DNA of 22,446 bases from a virus. Both the position numbers and the translations under genes were made by a program. The stretch is from the IMG/VR virus record IMGVR_UViG_3300021960_000568, positions 1 through 22,446 of that record; one strand, 5' to 3'. The notes beneath the pieces are model-generated. The model was not told the DNA's origin. It made no database searches and saw only the letters and a list, made by a program, of their open reading frames with translations. Of the stretch, positions 2,784 through 21,100 are shown piece by piece. Within the stretch, counting starts at the first letter, position 1, and each line of letters opens with the position of its first letter.

Positions 2784-4669
2784 TGCCCACAAATATCCCA
2801 GATTTCCCAGCAGTTAACCTCTCGAAGATGGAGGCTGACCTCAATAACGAGTGGAGAAACTTGGAGGCAGGGTACTACACTCGAAAAGCCACCAGAACAG
2901 AGAACTGGAAACGGTATAACTTCGAGGCTTACGGTAACGAGAGGGACGGCGAGTCTAAAATAACCGACTCCACGATATACAATACAATCGAGTGGATGCT
3001 GCCCAGCCTCATCCAACCATTCATCGAGACCCAAGACTTCGTTAAGGTGATCCCCGAGAGCGCCAGCTTTCGCGACATCATGGCCGCTGAGTTCAACCGT
3101 GAGCTGCTGAACTTCCAGATGCGTAAGCGCATGGACATGTACTCTCGGTATTATGACGCCTTCAAGACCATGCTCATCGGTGGCGACTCGTTCATCAAGC
3201 TGACTTGGCTCGACAGGGACAAGAAGAAAGGGGAGCCCGTTGGCCGCCCTAACTTGACCGTCGTATTTCCAGATTCAATCCGCTATGACTGGACTGTAAA
3301 AGGTGGATTCATGCACTCTAAGGTCGTGACCCATGAAGAGGATTGGAACAAGTCACAGGTCCTTGCCCTTCGCGGCGAGAAAGGCGTCATTGATTCCCAG
3401 CTCAAGAAGGCCCTCAGCAAAGAGGGGATGAACTCGAAGACTTCATACCTCCGCGACGAGCAGGTCGACGACAGCAATTACATCGGTGAGAAATACCAGA
3501 TGACCGACGAAAACAAGATGTTGTTCCTTCGCCGTGAACACTGGACTGAGTATGCCATGAACGGAGACGGAAAGCTCGTAGCGATCATGGCTGTATTCAT
3601 CGATAACTGCTTGGTCCAAGTGATCGAGAACCCCTACAGTTTCAAGCACCCTCCTTTCGTGAACATCGAGTGTGTCCGCGATCCACAGGGCAATCCGGCT
3701 AAGGGCCTTTCAGAGATCCTCGCGCCCATCCAGGCGTACAAGACCTCGATCATGCGTATGACTTCCAATAACCTCAACTCCCAGCTCAACGGGATGTACG
3801 AGGTCGACCAAACATCAGTCGATGATATTGGTATGCAGCTCTTAATGCAGAGCACCAGTGGCTCCAGAATACCTATCCCTGTCCGTAAGCCTGGGTCCAT
3901 CAACCCGCTTCCACAGAACCAGCTTGCACCTCAGACCTTCCCCATCCTTCAGATGCTTGAAGATGCCAGCGAGAACCGTGGGGGTTTCCCGAGGTATGCT
4001 CAAGGTCTTAACCCGAGTTCACTCTCTCAGACGGCCACAGGTGTTGTCGAGACCTCCCAACGTGCCGAGATGCGCCTATGGGAAGTGGCCACTCGTTTTG
4101 CAGAGCACAGCTTAAAGCCCTTGGTCCGTATGATCATCGCGCTCAACCAAGATAACCTCACCGAGCAAGACATCGAGATCCAGTTCGGCATCGACGCCAA
4201 GGGTAAAGAGATGCAAGACCCCGACACTGGGGAGATCATCAAGCTAGACGCTGACCCCGGCGACCTTATCGCTGTCTCTAAGGACGACATCTCGGGGTAC
4301 TTCAGCGTGAACCTCGACATACAGGTCGGATCTGATAAACAGAACACCATCAATAACCTTCTCCAGTACGCTCAGTATTTTGCGCCGTACATCGAGAACC
4401 AAACTATACCCCCAGAAGTTATCACCCAAGTGGCTGTGCAGTCTGCACGTCTCATGGGCTTACCACAAATCGAAGGCATTGTAAGGAGAAATACTCATGT
4501 CGGAATCGGAAACGCAAGCCTCCCCGGCTCAGTTGTTGGAGAAGGCCCTGGACAACAGGGAGCGTCTTTGGGAGCACTACAAGGTTCTGGAGCAGATGCC
4601 GGAATTCAAGGAACTGATCTTGGAGGGGTATCTGGGGACCTTAGAGCCCCTTCGGGACCAGTTGCTTAG
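2783..4669 (+). CDS. Portal protein (P22-like family)
   Basis: The protein has 628 residues. The N-terminal third has a helical region followed by a motif typical of P22-like podoviral portals, with a Thr/Asp pair before a segment like TIEWMLPSLIQPF (about residues 73-85). This is followed by charged helices and then a stretch reading GGDSFIKLTW, where these proteins have a conserved Gly-rich turn. In the family, twelve copies form the ring through which DNA enters and leaves and to which the tail adaptor binds. The start is TAATG, overlapping the terminase stop. The final 57 residues (from about 572) are rich in Gly, Ala, Ser and Gln and share their bases with the start of the next gene in another frame. 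This tail looks like a disordered extension, so the folded portal probably ends near residue 570. Confidence 0.9.
   Translation: MPTNIPDFPAVNLSKMEADLNNEWRNLEAGYYTRKATRTENWKRYNFEAYGNERDGESKITDSTIYNTIEWMLPSLIQPFIETQDFVKVIPESASFRDIMAAEFNRELLNFQMRKRMDMYSRYYDAFKTMLIGGDSFIKLTWLDRDKKKGEPVGRPNLTVVFPDSIRYDWTVKGGFMHSKVVTHEEDWNKSQVLALRGEKGVIDSQLKKALSKEGMNSKTSYLRDEQVDDSNYIGEKYQMTDENKMLFLRREHWTEYAMNGDGKLVAIMAVFIDNCLVQVIENPYSFKHPPFVNIECVRDPQGNPAKGLSEILAPIQAYKTSIMRMTSNNLNSQLNGMYEVDQTSVDDIGMQLLMQSTSGSRIPIPVRKPGSINPLPQNQLAPQTFPILQMLEDASENRGGFPRYAQGLNPSSLSQTATGVVETSQRAEMRLWEVATRFAEHSLKPLVRMIIALNQDNLTEQDIEIQFGIDAKGKEMQDPDTGEIIKLDADPGDLIAVSKDDISGYFSVNLDIQVGSDKQNTINNLLQYAQYFAPYIENQTIPPEVITQVAVQSARLMGLPQIEGIVRRNTHVGIGNASLPGSVVGEGPGQQGASLGALQGSGADAGIQGTDLGGVSGDLRAPSGPVA
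4482..4487 (+). promoter_or_regulatory. Strong ribosome binding site inside the portal gene
   Basis: AAGGAG lies 9 bases before the ATG at 4497, within portal coding sequence. It is one of the best ribosome binding sites in the window and decides the start of the overlapping 122-residue gene, because no other good site serves that frame. Confidence 0.8.
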
Positions 4670-4865
4670 CGACATTGGCCGCGACGAACTCAACGAAGAT
4701 ACCAAGAAAGAATACCAAGAGAAGTGGAGATTTCACGAGTACCTAGAAGGTATAAAGAAAGGCAAGGACGCTTGGTGGTACAAAGAGATGTATCGTAAAG
4801 CAGAGGCCGGAACACTTACCGAGCAGGAAATAAAAACCATTGCGGACAAAGGAGATAAGCGATGA
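4497..4865 (+). CDS. Hypothetical helical protein overlapping the portal gene
   Basis: This 122-residue protein is not recognised. It is charged and predominantly helical by composition (Glu, Lys, Leu, Trp), with a cluster of Trp and Tyr near residues 90-100 (KDAWWYKEMYRK) and no membrane segment. The start is ATG with AAGGAG nine bases upstream, which puts the first 57 codons inside the portal gene in a different frame. The reading frame looks like real protein on both sides of the portal stop at 4669, with no change of character, so the early start is credible. It ends in an ATGA overlap with the scaffold-like gene. Its position between portal and scaffold suggests a head-assembly role such as a portal- or scaffold-associated factor, but that is inference from position. 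Confidence 0.8.
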   Translation: MSESETQASPAQLLEKALDNRERLWEHYKVLEQMPEFKELILEGYLGTLEPLRDQLLSDIGRDELNEDTKKEYQEKWRFHEYLEGIKKGKDAWWYKEMYRKAEAGTLTEQEIKTIADKGDKR

Positions 4866-5816: not shown

Positions 5817-6845
5817 ATGGCTTTAAATACTTCCGGCGGCACAATTGGCGCCAGTGCACCCTCGGCTGGGGACTTCCCAGCTAACCACAAGTTCTACGAA
5901 CGTAAGTTCCTTGAGGCTTTGCAGCCCGAGCTTATGTACGACCTGTTTGGTGACAAGGCGGCTATCCCCGCTAACAACTCAAACACCATCGTCTACAACA
6001 AAATTTCCGAGTTCGCCACATTGGAAAACTCGCCTCTTACTGAAGGCGTAACCCCAACTGAGCAGACGCTCCAGATGACTCGTATCGAGCAAGCGATCAA
6101 CCAGTACGGCGCCTTTATGACGACTACTGACCGTCTTTCTGAAGAGTCTGTGAACGGCCTCACTTCTGAGTTCACCAAGCGTAACGCCCAACAAGGCGCC
6201 CGTACCGTTAACCTGGTATACCGCGATGGCCTTCTCGGTGGAACCAACGTCCGCTATGTAGGCGCCGCTGCCAACCAAGATGCTATCGGCACTGGTGCTG
6301 TAGCGACAACTGCTGACTTCGCGTTCATGTTGGAGTCTTTCCGTTTGGCCAAGGTTAAGCCTTGGGCTATGCGTACCACTGGAACTGCCAACGTCGGTAC
6401 TACTCCTATCGCCGAGAGCTACCACTGTGTTGTTCCCGTCGAAGCGATCCCTTTCATCGAAGCCCTCGATGACGGTGTTGCCAACGCTTTCCAAAGTGTT
6501 GAAGAGTACGCCGGACAGGTTCAAGCTGGAACCAACGAGTTTGGACGTTATGGCCGTTTCCGCTTCATGTTCGACACTGAGGCTTCTATCGTTGTCAACG
6601 CCAACGGCACCCCTCAAAAGGTTGCTCAGTGCTTGATCTTCGGTAAAGGTATCGAGGACAAAGCCTACAAGGTCGTCGACCTCGCAGGTGGCAACATGCA
6701 GATCATCACCAAGCCTTTGGGTTCTGGTGGTACTACTGACCCCCTCAACCAACGTGCAACACAGGGCTGGAAGTTCAAAGGTGGTACTTTTATCATCCAA
6801 GACACTTACATGTTCCGTTACGAGTTCAGCGTAGGCGATAACTAA
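5817..6845 (+). CDS. Major capsid protein (N4-gp56 family)
   Basis: The 342-residue product matches the N4-gp56 type of HK97-fold capsid proteins. It has an N-terminal arm with a segment such as FYERKFLEAL, then NTIVYNKISEFATL with LTEGVTP (about residues 58-80), followed by the helix of this family with the Gln/Tyr/Gly pattern of INQYGAFM. A Thr/Asp region leads to the long spine helix, and a C-terminal strand reads GTFIIQDTYMFRYEFSVG. In the virion, hundreds of copies form the shell. The gene is preceded by a 37-base gap and a weak ribosome binding site (only AGG at 5806-5808), which is unusual for the most abundant virion protein. A strong hairpin follows the stop. Codon choice is strongly biased to C-ending codons, as expected for high expression. 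Confidence 0.93.
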   Translation: MALNTSGGTIGASAPSAGDFPANHKFYERKFLEALQPELMYDLFGDKAAIPANNSNTIVYNKISEFATLENSPLTEGVTPTEQTLQMTRIEQAINQYGAFMTTTDRLSEESVNGLTSEFTKRNAQQGARTVNLVYRDGLLGGTNVRYVGAAANQDAIGTGAVATTADFAFMLESFRLAKVKPWAMRTTGTANVGTTPIAESYHCVVPVEAIPFIEALDDGVANAFQSVEEYAGQVQAGTNEFGRYGRFRFMFDTEASIVVNANGTPQKVAQCLIFGKGIEDKAYKVVDLAGGNMQIITKPLGSGGTTDPLNQRATQGWKFKGGTFIIQDTYMFRYEFSVGDN

Positions 6846-6860
6846 GCCGACGATTTCACT

Positions 6861-6909
6861 GTTGGCAGGTCCGGTGCGGGTTTCTCCTTCTCTCACCGGG
6901 CTTGCCAAC
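6861..6909 (+). other. 16-bp hairpin after capsid gene, possible pseudoknot with downstream RBS
   Basis: GTTGGCAGGTCCGGTG (6861-6876) pairs fully with CACCGGGCTTGCCAAC (6894-6909), 14 Watson-Crick pairs plus two G-U pairs, around a 17-base pyrimidine-rich loop. No T-run follows, so it is not a canonical intrinsic terminator; transcription into the next gene is likely to continue. Loop bases 6882-6889 (TTCTCCTT) are the exact complement of 6923-6930 (AAGGAGAA), the ribosome binding site of the next gene. The hairpin may stabilise capsid mRNA, control translation downstream, or both. Confidence 0.85.
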
Positions 6910-6922
6910 CCAAACTTATTCT

Positions 6923-6930
6923 AAGGAGAA
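6923..6930 (+). promoter_or_regulatory. Ribosome binding site complementary to upstream hairpin loop
   Basis: AAGGAGAA lies 4 bases before the ATG at 6935 (6 bases from the AAGGAG core). It decides that start over a TTG at 6902 in the same frame, which would fall inside the hairpin. The same eight bases can pair with the hairpin loop at 6882-6889, which would hide the site from ribosomes. Confidence 0.8.
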
Positions 6931-6934
6931 TAGA

Positions 6935-7402
6935 ATGCCAACAGCAAAGAAAGCAGACATTGGGTTAACAGCCCTAGAAGAAAAGAAACTGGACGTTGCC
7001 GTCGAGAGCGCCAAACTCGATATTGCCCAGAAGAGAGCTGATAACTCAGCCCAGACAGAATACTACGAGGGTGAAGGGAAGAAGCGGTACAAGTGCAAGA
7101 TAACTTCCATGCGCCGAGGCGAAAAACAGTTCGAGTTAACTGTCGCTGACCCTGCCAACCCCAACCATGCCATCTTGATCCGCGAGAAGTGCGGAGTGGT
7201 CCTTCAGCAAGGATTGCCGATGTTCGCCATCGACGCCCTACGCGCAGCTTACGATGTTGAGGCCGAGGAGGTCTCCGTAGGTGCTGACCCCAACATCCAC
7301 TACCAGCGCGAGTTCAAGACTTTCCATCGCCCCCGCTATGCCGTTGAGGTTTACGGCGAGGTCGAAGACCCTAAACCATTATCTTCACTTGTAAGGTACT
7401 AA
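6935..7402 (+). CDS. Hypothetical protein downstream of capsid
   Basis: The 155-residue product is not recognised. Residues 1-35 are a charged helix with many Lys and Glu. From about residue 38 there is a compact mixed region (a YEGEGKKRYKCKI strand, then basic and hydrophobic alternation), and the C-terminal part ends in a possible strand and Pro/Leu tail. There is no membrane segment or signal peptide. The start is ATG with a strong AAGGAG. It has a hairpin upstream, so its translation may be controlled separately from capsid. The stop overlaps the adaptor start as TAATG. Position between capsid and adaptor is where head-completion or decoration proteins occur, so a structural role is plausible but not shown. 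Confidence 0.8.
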   Translation: MPTAKKADIGLTALEEKKLDVAVESAKLDIAQKRADNSAQTEYYEGEGKKRYKCKITSMRRGEKQFELTVADPANPNHAILIREKCGVVLQQGLPMFAIDALRAAYDVEAEEVSVGADPNIHYQREFKTFHRPRYAVEVYGEVEDPKPLSSLVRY

Positions 7403-8769
7403 TGCTTTCATTCAGCAAGGTTTTATCCAGCGTTCGCAGACTTAACGAGGACTCTCCTGGTCTGCGCTGGGACGATGAGGTCATTGGTGACTACGCTACG
7501 GATGTCGTAAACGAGATTCGTAGACGCACCGGAGCGACTACTGACTCCGAGCCTTATCGTTTAAACCTTGTCCAAGGGCAGCAGGTGTACGACGTGACAC
7601 CTACTGGTGACGCTGGTAACTCTAGTGTCACCTTCGAGGGTCGGATCGTAAAGGTCCGGCTCTTGCCCGAGTGCTCCTCCACTGCCCTTGAGCTTTCGCA
7701 GGTTCCGATGCACGACATACCTGCCGGAGCCATCGTGGACCAAGAGGTAGTGGCCGGAGGTACTTCTTACATCGGGGGTACGGATGCTTTTAAGTACACT
7801 ACGCCCGATGTGACTTTTTCTGGCTTTCAGACTTATTGCTTCGAAGTGTTCGTTGAGAAGTCACAGACAGTCACAGGGACATGTTTTAACTTTGGAAACT
7901 CCCTCTCCGGTTTCACGCTTGACTGGGACACCTCCGTTAACGGCCTCATCGGCCAAATCCATAGTGGCTCTGGCGATGGGGTTTTTACCCCAGCCCCAGA
8001 TACGAATAGCGGTCGCGGCGTATGGACTAAGGTAGTTTTCACCTTCGGGGCCGATAGGGACGGAAGCGAGCTGTATTTAAACGCAGAGCCTCAAGAGAAG
8101 TCTGGGATAAACGCGACTTTCACCGAGCCGACGACAAGCCTGCTCTACGCGAGGGATCACGCGACGGGTTCGAATTGTGATTGTAGACTGAGGAACGTCG
8201 AGGTCTACTCTGGCATTCCAGAGAACCCGACTGAGTGGCTGCCAGGGGATGTTGAGTCTCTTATTGGTGTTACTCTTGTCACACAAGATCCGCTGGGTAA
8301 CGGTGAGTCTCCCGAAGGTGTGCTGTTTGGATATGCCACTGGGAACCCTATCACGGATGCGGTGCCTGCCTGTACGACAAGCCGAGTGCAGGACCAAGGA
8401 GAACCTACACAGTTCGCCCTTGGAGTGAACGGTGGTGTTGAGGGGACCGATCAAATCCTTAAGCTACACCCTTCGCCTTCCCGTAGTGCTTCTAGCGCCA
8501 TTATCGTCGACATCGCTGAGGACTGGATATTCGCAGTAGACTCGACGGCTACCTCTGAGCAAAACAACACGATCATGCCCGTGATGCAGAGGTTCGAGCA
8601 GCCTTTGATCTGGATGATCGCAGGGAAATGCTTGATCGAGATGAACGACAGCTCGTTTGTTGAGAAGGGCAACTTCTGGCTCCAGCGGGCCGAGAAGATG
8701 ATCGGTGACATTAGCGCCGTGAACACCCTTAGTAACTGGAACAACTCTCAGAACCGAGTCTTCCCTTGA
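7402..8769 (+). CDS. Head-tail adaptor protein with inserted lectin-like domain
   Basis: The 455-residue product reads as a podoviral adaptor split in two. Residues 1-115 have the family pattern: an N-terminal helix, a charged helix with DDEVIGDYATDVVNEIRR, then a strand with LNLVQGQQVYDV and a segment reading GRIVKVRLL. The C-terminal part (about residues 325-455) resumes with a strand ending LKLHPSPS, then a conserved strand and a helical bundle (MQRFEQPLIWMIAGKCLIEM, about residues 395-414). Between them, about residues 121-300, is a beta-rich segment with a jelly-roll or LamG-like pattern (strand pairs, WTKVVFTFG, a terminal PTEWLPGD). Uninterrupted adaptors are usually near 200-250 residues, so the extra length fits a domain insertion. 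In the family, the ring of adaptors extends the portal for the nozzle. The start is TAATG. The exact insertion ends are estimates. Confidence 0.72.
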   Translation: MLSFSKVLSSVRRLNEDSPGLRWDDEVIGDYATDVVNEIRRRTGATTDSEPYRLNLVQGQQVYDVTPTGDAGNSSVTFEGRIVKVRLLPECSSTALELSQVPMHDIPAGAIVDQEVVAGGTSYIGGTDAFKYTTPDVTFSGFQTYCFEVFVEKSQTVTGTCFNFGNSLSGFTLDWDTSVNGLIGQIHSGSGDGVFTPAPDTNSGRGVWTKVVFTFGADRDGSELYLNAEPQEKSGINATFTEPTTSLLYARDHATGSNCDCRLRNVEVYSGIPENPTEWLPGDVESLIGVTLVTQDPLGNGESPEGVLFGYATGNPITDAVPACTTSRVQDQGEPTQFALGVNGGVEGTDQILKLHPSPSRSASSAIIVDIAEDWIFAVDSTATSEQNNTIMPVMQRFEQPLIWMIAGKCLIEMNDSSFVEKGNFWLQRAEKMIGDISAVNTLSNWNNSQNRVFP

Positions 8770-10034
8770 GCTTACTCCGTGAGATGGCAGGCGCCATGGA
8801 GCGGATGGCCCAGCGCCAAGAGGATCTCTACGGCGTAGTCAGTATGTTGACTGAGGTTGTCCAAGGGCAATCTCTGAACATGGCCTTTGATCGAGGAGTC
8901 ATTAACGACTTCATCAACTCCACGGACATGCCCCACGATTGCGACATGGCTGGAGTTAAGCTCGACGTAGCGGCCTCCAACGGCAACTACATGTACAAGA
9001 AGGGCGACAGGGGTAGGCATACACTCGCCGCCCGTTACGCTATCGATAAGATACCCAAGGTGGCGAAGGCCGACTTGGATGCAGCGATTGCGAGGCAACA
9101 CGGCGGGGTAGCCAAGCAGGCCGAGGAGGTCGCTAGGAGGACCGTCGAGGCTATCGGTGGGGACCTCAAAGAGAAGCTCATGGCCCACGTTAAGGAAGCT
9201 ACAAACCTTTTGGCCAAGTCGCAGAGTAAAGCGGCCCATATCTACAGGGACATCGAGGAAGCTGAGGTGATGATCCTTGGGGATATTAGCGAGGCCAAGG
9301 GCGCTCTAGAGCGTAGCTCAACGGCGCTCAACATGACCACTGAGCAGAGCAAGCGCACCGTCGATATAGCGCAGGGTAAAGCCAACGTGGTTATCAAGAA
9401 GATTGAGAACGCGAAGACCGAGATACTGGACGACATTAGCGCAGAGATCAAGGCGGCCAAAGACTCGGTTCGAGATGAGCTGAGAGATGAGGTCCAGACT
9501 AAACTCTCGCAGCTTGACGATAGCGTTAGCTCAGCGGTCGAGGATTACACCGCGAAGGCCAAGGCGGCCATAGATGATATGCAGGACGTGCTCCCAGAGA
9601 TGGCTAAGGTGCAGGAGTCAGTCGGTAAGAAACTCGAAGAGGCCCGTCATATGGCGAACGTAGTCGAAAAGAAATTCAATCAGACTTTGAAGACTTCCCT
9701 TGGCACCGCTGACACCGTTATTAGAAACGCAGAGTCTAAACTGGAGCGACAGATTGGAGAACAGAGCGATAACATTAAGGGGCTTTTGTCGCGTTTGGAA
9801 GCGACGCGCTACGAGGTTCGCGACAGTTACGAGTCGAATGTTGGTGCGGCTATTGAAAAAGTAGTATCCTCGCTTAAACAAAAAGAGGCCGAGGTCAATA
9901 GCTCACTGAATGTACTTGCAGCACTAGAGCAGCAACTACAATCCAAAAGTAAGGAGATTCCGGCGTTAACTGCGAGAGTGGAAAACGCCATTCCTAAACG
10001 AAAACAAAAGGTAAGAATATCCCATGGCCATTGA
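8766..10034 (+). CDS. Long coiled-coil virion protein, function unknown
   Basis: This is a 422-residue protein if translation starts at TTG 8766 (TTGA overlap with the adaptor stop); an ATG at 8784 would remove six residues, and neither has a clear ribosome binding site. Residues 1-55 are a helical N-terminal region, about 55-90 a small Gly/Asp/Lys-containing segment, and about 95-410 are almost pure coiled coil, with Ala/Glu/Lys-rich heptads and few Pro or Gly. The C-terminus is basic (KRKQKVRISHGH). No enzyme motif is seen. Its place between the adaptor and the S74-chaperoned fibre suggests a tail rod, fibre stem or linker, and long trimeric coiled coils are common there. An ejection or internal protein is an alternative. 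The end overlaps the fibre gene by 11 bases. Confidence 0.72.
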   Translation: MSLLREMAGAMERMAQRQEDLYGVVSMLTEVVQGQSLNMAFDRGVINDFINSTDMPHDCDMAGVKLDVAASNGNYMYKKGDRGRHTLAARYAIDKIPKVAKADLDAAIARQHGGVAKQAEEVARRTVEAIGGDLKEKLMAHVKEATNLLAKSQSKAAHIYRDIEEAEVMILGDISEAKGALERSSTALNMTTEQSKRTVDIAQGKANVVIKKIENAKTEILDDISAEIKAAKDSVRDELRDEVQTKLSQLDDSVSSAVEDYTAKAKAAIDDMQDVLPEMAKVQESVGKKLEEARHMANVVEKKFNQTLKTSLGTADTVIRNAESKLERQIGEQSDNIKGLLSRLEATRYEVRDSYESNVGAAIEKVVSSLKQKEAEVNSSLNVLAALEQQLQSKSKEIPALTARVENAIPKRKQKVRISHGH

Positions 10035-11571
10035 CTCCACAAACCAAGGTTACATCGACGCGCAGAACTATGCGAACGACCCCAACAACGTCGACGTTCC
10101 CGACCGCGATCACCAGAAGTATTCTGAGGGTATCGACACATTCCAACTGACCCAGCAGCAGGACGTTACTGACCTCACTTCGGTTATCACTGCCGATGCG
10201 ATCAATGATCGCGTGGGTATCAATGAGGCGACCCCTCTTCGTGAACTCCACATCCACAAAGATGGTGCCACTCAGGTCGCCATGCACCTCACTAATGGGA
10301 CGACCGGTAAGGATGTAGGCTCTGGATTTGACTTTCAACTGGACACAGATGGCGACGCCCAGATTCTCCAGAGGGAGAACGGACGGTTGCTTTTATACAC
10401 AAACAATGCTGTTAGGCAGACCATAGACTCAGCCGGAAATGTCGGAATCGGGACTTCTGCGCCAGTTAGAGATCTGCACGTCCATGACGCAAGCACAGCA
10501 TACCTCATGCTCTCGAATAACACCAGTGGGCAGACGACTGCTGACGGTTTTCAGTTGGGTCAAGAAGGTTTGGACACCTTTATGATTAACCGTGAAGCTG
10601 GACATATGCGGTTTTCTACAAATAACACTGAAGCCATGAGGCTCGACTCGTCTCAGAATCTGCTTGTGGGGAAGACGTCAATCAGCTCTGCAGTTGCTGG
10701 ATGTGAGATAAAATCCGGTGGTCAGTTGTTTGCTACAAAAGACAGTGATTACTGCGCTCGGTTTAATCGACTGACTACTGACGGGGCCGTAATTCAAATT
10801 CAACAGGCAGGAGTTCTGGTCGGCTCAATCGGAACTGAAGGCACAAAACTGGATATAAATGGAGGAGGATCACTTGCTTTCTCGATAAATGGCAGCGAGA
10901 AAGTTCAGGTTGAATCAACTGGAATCACCCGCCCCGGAACTGACAACACTCAATCTCTAGGCAAGGCATCTTTCCGTTGGTCAACTGTGTATGCAGGGAC
11001 AGGGTCGATCAACACTTCTGACGAGAGAACCAAGACAGAGGTTGTTGACGTCGAGACTCTGGCAATGGATGCTGGCGACCTCATCAGCGTGAAGCAGTTC
11101 AAGTTCAAAGACGCAGTTGAGTCAAAAGGTTCTGACGCTCGCCTACACTTCGGTGTCATCGCTCAAGAAGTTAAAGCAGCATTTGAATCTGTGGGCCTTG
11201 ATGGTTTTGCCTATGGAGTTCTGTGTTACGACGAATGGGAAGACGAGTTTAAGACTGTCACTGTAGAGCCTGCTGTGTATGAGACTAATATCATCACTCC
11301 AGCAGTTGAAGGTGTTGAAGCTGTAGCTGAGGAGCTAAACGAAGACGGAGATGTGATTGTTGAAGCTGTCGAAGCAGTGGAAGCTGTAGAGGAAGTCACA
11401 GAGCAAGTCTTAGTCACTCCTGCCGTCACTGAAGAACAGCTAGTCACCCCAGCAGGGAATCGCTACGGGGTTCGCTATGATGAATTAATGGCCCTGAAAA
11501 TTGCCTGCTTGGAGCGCAAACTATCCAAGAGCTTGAGGCACGACTCACTGCCGCAGGGATCTAATCTCTAA
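10024..11571 (+). CDS. Tail fibre with C-terminal S74 self-cleaving chaperone
   Basis: In frame 0 the product has 515 residues. The N-terminal part (1-60) probably attaches to the virion. From about residue 62 to 300 there are beta-type repeats seen in fibre shafts, including two copies of an RVGI/NVGIG then LHxH unit (near 63-75 and 140-151). The S74 intramolecular chaperone begins near 320: TSDERTK with catalytic Ser332 and Lys337, followed by AQEV at 380-383. In the family, the chaperone drives trimer folding and is then cut off just before the Ser. About 420-470 is a Val/Glu/Ala-rich low-complexity stretch (VEAVEAVEAVEE). The last 20 residues in this frame are atypical; the -1 frame from 11508 encodes the usual final helix, so the gene may carry or use a frameshift. 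The start is ATG with a weak AAAAGG site. Confidence 0.9.
   Translation: MAIDSTNQGYIDAQNYANDPNNVDVPDRDHQKYSEGIDTFQLTQQQDVTDLTSVITADAINDRVGINEATPLRELHIHKDGATQVAMHLTNGTTGKDVGSGFDFQLDTDGDAQILQRENGRLLLYTNNAVRQTIDSAGNVGIGTSAPVRDLHVHDASTAYLMLSNNTSGQTTADGFQLGQEGLDTFMINREAGHMRFSTNNTEAMRLDSSQNLLVGKTSISSAVAGCEIKSGGQLFATKDSDYCARFNRLTTDGAVIQIQQAGVLVGSIGTEGTKLDINGGGSLAFSINGSEKVQVESTGITRPGTDNTQSLGKASFRWSTVYAGTGSINTSDERTKTEVVDVETLAMDAGDLISVKQFKFKDAVESKGSDARLHFGVIAQEVKAAFESVGLDGFAYGVLCYDEWEDEFKTVTVEPAVYETNIITPAVEGVEAVAEELNEDGDVIVEAVEAVEAVEEVTEQVLVTPAVTEEQLVTPAGNRYGVRYDELMALKIACLERKLSKSLRHDSLPQGSNL
11508..11564 (+). other. -1 frame tail of S74 chaperone (frameshifted C-terminus)
   Basis: Moving back one base after the TGC codon at 11506-11508 opens a frame encoding LGAQTIQELEARLTAAGI and a TAA at 11562-11564. 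This has the Gln/Leu/Glu heptad pattern normally found at the end of S74 chaperones after the YDELMALKIA motif. The frame-0 continuation (ERKLSKSLRHDSLPQGSNL) does not. No X XXY YYZ slippery heptamer is visible at the site, so a one-base loss in the genome or in the assembly is at least as likely as programmed shifting. Confidence 0.7.
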
Positions 11572-18118: not shown

Positions 18119-21100
18119 ATGCCAGCCGACACCCTTTTAGACAGACAAAGAGAGGTTCAGACGGTACAGGGGGAAGACGGGGTTGTTCAGACTGCAACAT
18201 CTCCTCTAGACCCTGTTGTCGAAGCACCGGAGGTTAAAGGTCTCCCCGGAGTGTCGGGCGTAGAAGAACAAGTCCTTGAGTCCACTGCTCCTGCGACTGG
18301 AGCCTTCGCCCCCGAGACTTTAGCCGAACTCCAAGAAGTAACTAGCGGTAGATCCGGTAGTATCTTCGGGTCCGCTAGGGCTGGATGGAACGAGGGTATC
18401 ATTGGCAGTGTCGTTAACTCGATAAGTGGGTCTCCCCTTAGCGCAGGGGACCTCGACAAGTTCAGAATCGAGATGACATCCTATGCGGACAAGAACCCTG
18501 TTAAGAACTTCATGGGTGAGGTAGCTGGTCGTTGGCTTAGTGATTCTCCTTTAGATATGGTCATAGGTTTTGGTTCCTCCAACCTAGGTAAAGCTGTTTC
18601 GACCTATGCTAACTTACGGAAGTTTCCAGTTGGGGCACAGACAAAAATAGATGATGCGATAAAACTAGCACACAAGGACGACCCTAAACTCGGGAAGCGA
18701 ATCTATATCAACGCTACGGAAGGTCTTCTCACAGGATACTTGTCTGAGGAAATCCTCCAAGGACTCGGGAAAGAAGGTAACGAATCGGATAAGCTCGCGG
18801 CAGCTATCGGAGACGCCATCGCCTCTCCTATATTTAGCGAGGGGCTACGAGCTTTAGTTAAGACAGGCAGTTGGACTTCCAAGAAGTTCGTAAAAGACTT
18901 ATCGAAAGACCTGTCCCCTAAACTCGGCGTCCCCCCTAAGCAACTCGAACCGATCCTTCGAGATAACCTCAAGGATATGGAAGAGATCGCTAAGGCTACC
19001 GAAGAAGGTGTGCATACTGTACCTACGGCAGAAGAGTCTATCGCGAAGGACATTACGGTGCTACAGTCTGAAGTTAAAAGGACAGACCTAGCCGAGAAGA
19101 TCGAGATGGAAAAGTCCTTCCAACAAAAGCTAGCCTCTAGAGAGGGAGTGACTGACCTTGCGGAAAGGAACGCCCTTACTGACCACGCAGCTAAAGTTCA
19201 GCGCAAGGTCGAGCGCATAAGAGACGGTGAGCTTCCTGACTTTGCTAAGAAGATCCCCGAGGGGGAAGTCTTGCTCCGCACAGAAGCAGATGTCGATAAC
19301 GTCTTTAGAAAGCTACTCGACTCTGATGCAAAGAACATGGACGGTCAGGTCGGTATCCTAAAGAACTTGATGAAAGCTCGCGCAGCAGCCACAGGTCACA
19401 GGAGCTTAGATGACTGGCTCGCTAAAGCAAAGCTAATGGCGGGAGGAGGGGACAACGCTAAGACAGTCTTTGGTCAAACTCACACATTGCTCTCTGCACC
19501 TTACAGAGCTACCAGCTTCCGTGAGCTTGTCCACGAGATGGGGCATATCTTCGAATTCGATCTGGATAACCGTACACTTCGTACTGTCGCAAAAGAGTAT
19601 GGCGTAGGGACAGATAACATTTTTACTCGTGATGTGTCGGAAAGGTTTGCTCAAGACTTCGAATCATATGTCAGCGACTTAGCTGGCGGGCGAGACTCGG
19701 AGTTGTCCGGCTCTCTCCGTAAGGCTTTCGACAAGATGCTGAGCTATCTTAAGACGATCTTCACTGGGCTGCCTACCGACCCCATCGACCCAAACATGCG
19801 CGAGGTGTTCGATAATATCTTTGGGGCAGACAAGACAGGCTCACCTATCGGTGACGTCGACGCATTTCGTAAGGCGAGGGTTGCAGTCAAGGCACAGCGT
19901 GGCGGAGAAGAACTATTCTTTACGCCAAAGGAAGGTGAAGACTTCGGTGCGTTGCAAGACGCGAAGGCCGAAGAACTTGTCTCTGATCTAAACAGCGGCG
20001 CAGAGGAGATCGAGTTCTCCGCACTGGCCGACAAGAAGGGTCTAGCCAATAAGGCTTGGAATGCTTTTCGTAAGAAAGCCCCTTCGATCTTTGGTGCTGG
20101 GGTACTGACTCCTCAGTCGTTGTTCTCTGGTCTAGGAGAAACTGGAAAGAAGATATGGGAATCCATGCAGAAAGGTATCCAGCGTGAAGCTGAGTTCCAG
20201 TCGAGGAACGTCGGCCAGATCAACAGCGCCATGGAGGCTACTAAGTTCGATAAGGCCGACTCAGCTAACCTCGCTAAGAAAGGAGAGGTCAACCTTGGGG
20301 ACGGAAAGAAAAGAGACATGTCGGGGCAAGAGGCGTTGGTGCTGAGCATGTACGCCCGGAACAAGAGCGGTAAATACTCAGCTCACGACTCGTTAGTCGA
20401 GAAGGGTTATCAGCCTCAAGGTACAGACGAGGTAATAACTTTCACCCCTGAGCAGGTCAATGAGATGGCCACCGACACTTGGCTTCTTGAGAACGCTGGT
20501 GAATCTGGGGTTAAAGCTGCTGAGATGCTTCGGCTTTCCTTTATCGAGATGGCCGGGAATGAGAGGAACATGCTTTCAAATCGTGGAATTCCCGAAGAAG
20601 ACATCGAGCTGAACGAGGATTACTTCCCTAAGAAGGGCCTCGCTTTAACTCGTAACGAGCTTAAGAAACTTCCTAAGTCTGCCCGAGATGCTATCGCTTC
20701 AGAGGACATCCAGAAGGTCATGGCCAATACAAGGGGCCGTAGCCACAAGCAAGTCCAGAGTGACATGTTCGCCTCACGTTCAGCTAATATACGGAGGAGA
20801 GGAAACTCGACCCTTGTGTTCCAGAACCCCCTCGAATCTTTGATGAAACACTCCGACCAGCAGACTCGCTTTGAGGCTCTGGCTGACGAAGTGGCCTACG
20901 CGAAAGCATGGTCCAACGGGATGGAGGGCGACATCTCGAAGTTCGTTGGTGACGACATTAACAAAGCCATAAGCACATCCTTGGAGACCGTATCTGGTGG
21001 TCGAGGTGGCGACCCTATCGCTGGGAAGATCGCTGGTCAACTGTTCAAAGGTCAGGTCCTCTCTGCGCTATCGTTTAACCTCTCGCCCATAGCGAAGCAG

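Follow-up and report, generated by a model that had tools for sequence, protein, structure and literature searches.

The window analyzed here is a 22,446-nt fragment from an uncultured podovirus. Its structural block runs in the order of terminase (1323), SU10-type portal (2783), N4-gp56 capsid (5817), and then small head and tail genes, and the gene at 4862 is, by its position, probably the scaffold gene. The structural genes are tightly packed, and the two gaps that flank the capsid gene, of 37 and 89 nt, are the sole sizeable ones in the block. The capsid genes of relatives carry the annotation N4-gp56 family major capsid protein. A counterpart of the gene at 6935 lies behind the capsid gene in four relatives that were aligned, with weak identity (29%–39%), and in StenR_269 the gene in this position is annotated as "virion associated protein." The features in and around the gap behind the capsid gene are as follows:

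5817–6845, plus strand: major capsid protein gene, N4-gp56 family, 342 aa (phrog_1357 major head protein, E 1.9e-42)
6861–6909, plus strand: post-capsid hairpin, with a 16-bp stem (6861–6876/6894–6909) and a 17-nt loop (6877–6893), with an equivalent in six divergent relatives
6882–6889, plus strand: loop octamer TTCTCCTT, the exact complement of the downstream Shine–Dalgarno (SD) sequence, with the pairing kept in L002 and weakly in L028
6910–6922, plus strand: 13-nt linker CCAAACTTATTCT, without a U-tract (T-tail score 0.13)
6923–6930, plus strand: SD sequence AAGGAGAA of the gene at 6935, also predicted to lie within a small local hairpin
6935–7402, plus strand: next gene, 155 aa, without a family match

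The initial annotation had described a perfectly pairable 16-bp stem with two G-U pairs, and this was borne out both by the pairing itself, with GTTGGCAGGTCCGGTG (6861–6876) fully paired with CACCGGGCTTGCCAAC (6894–6909), and by an energy scan of the window. Among uninterrupted helices of at least 11 bp, the hairpin was the strongest in the 22.4-kb window (−32.8 kcal/mol), and the runner-up reached −23.8 kcal/mol. The gap between the capsid gene and the next gene had a folding z-score of −4.65, and none of 200 dinucleotide shuffles folded equally well. A stem of this kind lies far outside what chance would give. The hairpin starts 15 nt past the capsid stop codon and ends 25 nt ahead of the next start, which, judging from these coordinates, suggests that a terminating or initiating ribosome should melt little of it. 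The search of Rfam with the hairpin region of the window did not match any curated covariance model at E values up to 1.

The hairpin was compared with six divergent IMG/VR relatives (L002, L013, L006, L009, L010, and L028), while the near-identical contig L001 (99.65%) was uninformative. Capsid identity to the window, over the aligned part, was 64% in L002, 63% in L013, 52% in L006, and 56% in both L009 and L010, and the L028 capsid was 58% identical to that of L010. Three records were left out: L024 and L025, which end ahead of the gap, and L032, in which a homologous capsid gene was not detectable. A phage nucleotide search with the window returned no matches, and scans of genome collections with capsid and portal profiles did not find relatives.

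The data showed that a strong hairpin is present in the gap between the capsid gene and the next gene in all seven lineages, with z-scores from −3.7 to −8.6 and none of 200 shuffles as good in each case. Paired substitutions in the stem, which the initial annotation had proposed to look for among related phages, were indeed seen in the lower stem of six lineages, where pairs 3, 4, 6, 7, and 8 carry substitutions on both sides in a small alignment made by hand, in which L013 could not be aligned. These changes on both sides show that the structure is under selection, and the comparison gives good support to the post-capsid hairpin as a genuine element at the boundary of the capsid gene, kept by selection. 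A scripted scan of three distant records (L018, L019, and L037) gave no comparable hairpin, with the next start possibly mis-chosen in them. The post-capsid element of L028 (6550–6766) is a three-way junction, consisting of an outer stem, an arm with a UCUCCUAAGU loop, and a UUCG-capped arm; behind the junction lies a small lysine-rich ORF, the stop codon of which abuts the ATG of the next gene.

The sequences following the stem differ among the lineages. In L006 and L010 the sequence TTTTT is located directly behind the stem (T-scores 4.0 and 3.9, compared with 2.6 for the 99th percentile of the window), and in L009 TTTTTT is located at most 20 nt from it. A U-tract behind the stem was not found in the window (T-score 0.13), L002, L013, or L028. 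Because the automatic T-score was misled by overlong outer pairings in L028, L038, L039, L040, and L041, the tails of these five were read by eye. A hairpin with a U-tract is also present in the capsid/next-gene gap of the distant N4-gp56 records Y3, ct7QV12, ctQWt234, and an Endozoicomonas plasmid, and in Bacillus phage Page and Paenibacillus phage API480 a terminator was annotated at the post-capsid spot by the record annotators. The two latter phages share with the window the N4-gp56 capsid family and the same gap before the next gene, while their hairpins are followed by the U-tract that the window hairpin lacks. The window hairpin has the stability and G+C-richness of an intrinsic terminator without the U-tract directly after the stem, and it is for this reason not classified as one; its 17-nt loop is also longer than usual for a terminator. 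A hairpin behind the capsid gene is thus common among these little-studied podoviruses, the lineages of which differ in whether it is followed by a U-tract.

In T7, a terminator follows gene 10. In the T7-like phage LUZ100, transcript mapping indicated an apparent strong terminator immediately 3′ of the capsid gene (PMC10134795). The window resembles these T7-like phages in having an element behind the capsid gene within a podovirus structural block, and in the presumed role of this element in setting capsid expression apart. It differs from them in its lack of a U-tract, its 17-nt loop, and its capsid family, and also in having no demonstrated phage RNA polymerase or local promoter.

These observations suggest that the hairpin is probably a 3′ boundary element of the capsid mRNA, which could act as a terminator or attenuator, or as a protector of the 3′ end. 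By forming just 3′ of the capsid stop codon it would set capsid expression apart from that of the downstream genes. In the relatives in which the hairpin is followed by UUUUU, partial termination would be expected, leading to lower output of the downstream head–tail genes. The absence of the U-tract in the window and its nearest relatives makes 3′-end protection and/or weak or factor-assisted termination most likely there. The hairpin would most likely protect the 3′ end of the capsid mRNA by blocking 3′-exonucleases once the mRNA has been cleaved, or ended by factor-dependent termination, in the region behind the hairpin, and/or it could serve as a weak or factor-assisted terminator. The hairpin, its conservation with covariation, and the U-tracts of the relatives are observed, while its activity in the cell and the balance between termination and 3′-end protection here are what we infer. 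Plain mRNA stabilization by the stem, which the initial annotation had offered as an alternative to hiding of the ribosome binding site (RBS), fits the comparative evidence better than such hiding does, jointly with termination or attenuation, which had not been named. Alternatively, the long stem could be cut or bounded by RNase III or RNase E, which would part the capsid and downstream mRNAs. Near-perfect stems of 16–20 bp, which are within the size cleavable by RNase III, followed by a single strand are consistent with such processing; however, the U-tracts 3′ of the stem in the relatives suit termination better, and we consider endonucleolytic processing unlikely.

A further proposal concerned the loop, in which TTCTCCTT was noted as exactly complementary to the RBS AAGGAGAA of the gene at 6935, so that an H-type pseudoknot, with joining segments of 5, 4, and 13 nt, would hide this site. 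Both the 8-bp complementarity and the segment lengths agree with the coordinates. A match of this length was obtained with 0.75% of shuffled loops (p = 0.0075) and 0.2% of uniform random loops (p = 0.002), while 5.6% of shuffles were as good when the match was scored by duplex energy (p = 0.056). About 0.05% of the other 17-mers of the window match the RBS region of the gene at 6935 by at least 8 bp. Hence, the match is moderately unusual, with p from about 0.001 to 0.06 depending on the choice of null. The gene at 4497 has the octamer AAGGAGAA as its RBS too (4483–4490), and the loop could pair with either copy, so that it complements a generic strong SD sequence rather than that of the gene at 6935 alone. 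A second copy of TTCTCCTT is located at 18544, inside a gene.

The loop–RBS complementarity was then compared among the lineages as the longest contiguous Watson–Crick match between the main loop and the 20 nt ahead of the next start. The window reached 8 bp, L002 and L028 reached 6 bp each, L013 and L006 had 4 bp, and L009 and L010, both of which have UUCG tetraloops, had 3 bp. The 4-bp match of L006 falls outside the SD sequence, and the 6-bp match of L028 is on one arm of the three-way junction, with the RBS well beyond 100 nt away behind the small ORF. The shuffle p-value was 0.006 for L002, and about 0.75 for each of L013, L006, L009, and L010. The combined p-value of the six relatives, with the discovery case left out, was 0.11, and as a set they do not support the complementarity. 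The conservation or covariation of the loop–SD pairing that would be expected of an SD-sequestering pseudoknot was therefore not found among the six relatives: the pairing is kept in the sister L002 and perhaps in L028, and is absent in the other four. The expectation that the loop complementarity would be kept together with the stem fails in these four (L006, L009, L010, and L013), which is the outcome that the initial annotation had named as speaking against its proposal. The hiding of the next RBS by the loop is consistent only with the 8 and 6 bp of the window and L002, with their one compensated pair, and more weakly with L028.

The window and L002 are sisters (support 100/98). One sister has CUCCUU/AAGGAG, and the other has CUCCUA/UAGGAG, which leaves one truly compensated pair, U6889-A6923 versus A-U. 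As the two are sisters, their matches represent one origin with one compensated pair, which is the sole comparative evidence for the pseudoknot. CUCC loops are found in the window, L002, L013, and L028, which are exactly the lineages without a U-tract, and not in the U-tract-containing L006, L009, and L010 (4/0 versus 0/3, Fisher p = 0.029, post hoc). This split could favor the pseudoknot; however, three of the four CUCC lineages form one clade, so that common ancestry can account for a large part of the pattern.

In an ideal A-form model of the window pseudoknot, the 13-nt linker would follow a path of ∼38 Å across the minor groove, while its reach is ∼80 Å by our own estimate of 6 Å per link. 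In this model the linkers are thus sterically possible in the window, and the 16-bp stem would not need to open there. The suggestion of the initial annotation that the outer pairs may have to open for the 13-nt linker is therefore unnecessary for the window with ideal A-form geometry. It would apply to L002, in which only 9 nt are available for ∼21 stem layers, so that some opening of the outer pairs would be needed. The helix energies in the pseudoknot were −29.9 and −9.0 kcal/mol, each including the duplex initiation term of ∼4.1, and the textbook pseudoknot penalty is ∼9.6. A sum made by hand with these terms gave roughly −37.5 for the pseudoknot, compared with −37.4 for the nested minimum, which includes the small local hairpin (−3.8 kcal/mol) holding the SD sequence. 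The SD:anti-SD pairing with the ribosome (−9.1 kcal/mol) is about as strong as the pairing of the loop with the SD sequence. The pseudoknot would be about isoenergetic with this minimum. Given also the local hairpin around the SD sequence and the equally strong ribosomal pairing, it is possible, yet the case for it is not compelling.

A translational control, in which pairing of the loop with the SD sequence would lower translation of the gene at 6935 until ribosomes or a factor open the pseudoknot, with the pairing kept in L002 by the compensating change, seems improbable to us. The exact match in the window, its counterpart in L002, the feasible linker, and the level energies agree with it, while the sister relationship, the L002 linker, the RBS shared with the gene at 4497, the equally strong ribosomal pairing, the combined p-value of the six relatives, and the absence of the match in L013, L006, L009, and L010 argue against it. 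The pseudoknot switch is unproven and has a low probability, and outside the window and L002 it is mostly contradicted by the relatives. We slightly favor the explanation that a pyrimidine-rich loop on a 3′-boundary hairpin happens to hold an anti-SD-like octamer, which is compatible with the boundary role. This would be consistent with the duplex-energy shuffles, the recurrence of TTCTCCTT within a gene, the low complexity of the SD consensus, the choice of the match after the fact, and the lack of conserved loop–SD pairing in most relatives, although the compensated pair within the 6-bp match of L002 does not fit it easily. The SD-complementary loop would then be at most a minor or clade-specific feature, and the main caution as it stands is that anti-SD-like loops arise easily.

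In SAM-II and similar riboswitches, the SD sequence lies within a strand of the pseudoknot. The window would resemble them in that a strand of an H-type pseudoknot holds the SD sequence, while it differs in having a 16-bp stem, a generic and unconserved anti-SD loop, no conserved ligand pocket, and no Rfam match. The H-type fold is covered in a previous report (PMC7367207). If the pseudoknot forms, its position upstream of a translation start would also be similar to that of the T4/T2 gene 32 and E. coli rpsO pseudoknots, of which the gene 32 pseudoknot is placed upstream of the RBS and nucleates the binding of the repressor protein (PMC3014915). Unlike gene 32, the window has no known regulator, and conservation of the pairing is poor. 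It is unlikely that the window/L002 lineage started from a post-capsid terminator, the U-tract of which was lost and the loop of which now lowers translation of the next gene through an anti-SD pseudoknot, or, in a trans variant considered jointly with it, that a stable trimmed fragment of the abundant capsid mRNA acts on other strong SD sequences, such as that of the gene at 4497. Were control by the loop real, a hairpin for transcription control would have become a translation switch, which is rare.

The putative head–tail adaptor of the window (7402–8769, 455 aa) contains a ∼200-residue insert (about residues 113–315), which is absent in five relatives with proteins of 214–224 aa; by eye the insert has a likeness to a LamG/concanavalin-type fold, and it had no match in Pfam. 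The terminase frame of L020 (39–2243) extends to 734 aa, though the terminase similarity stops near 1388, which could possibly reflect a fusion or an insertion. Further downstream, the window encodes a tail fibre/spike-like protein (10024–11571) with a C-terminal S74 endosialidase-type chaperone domain.
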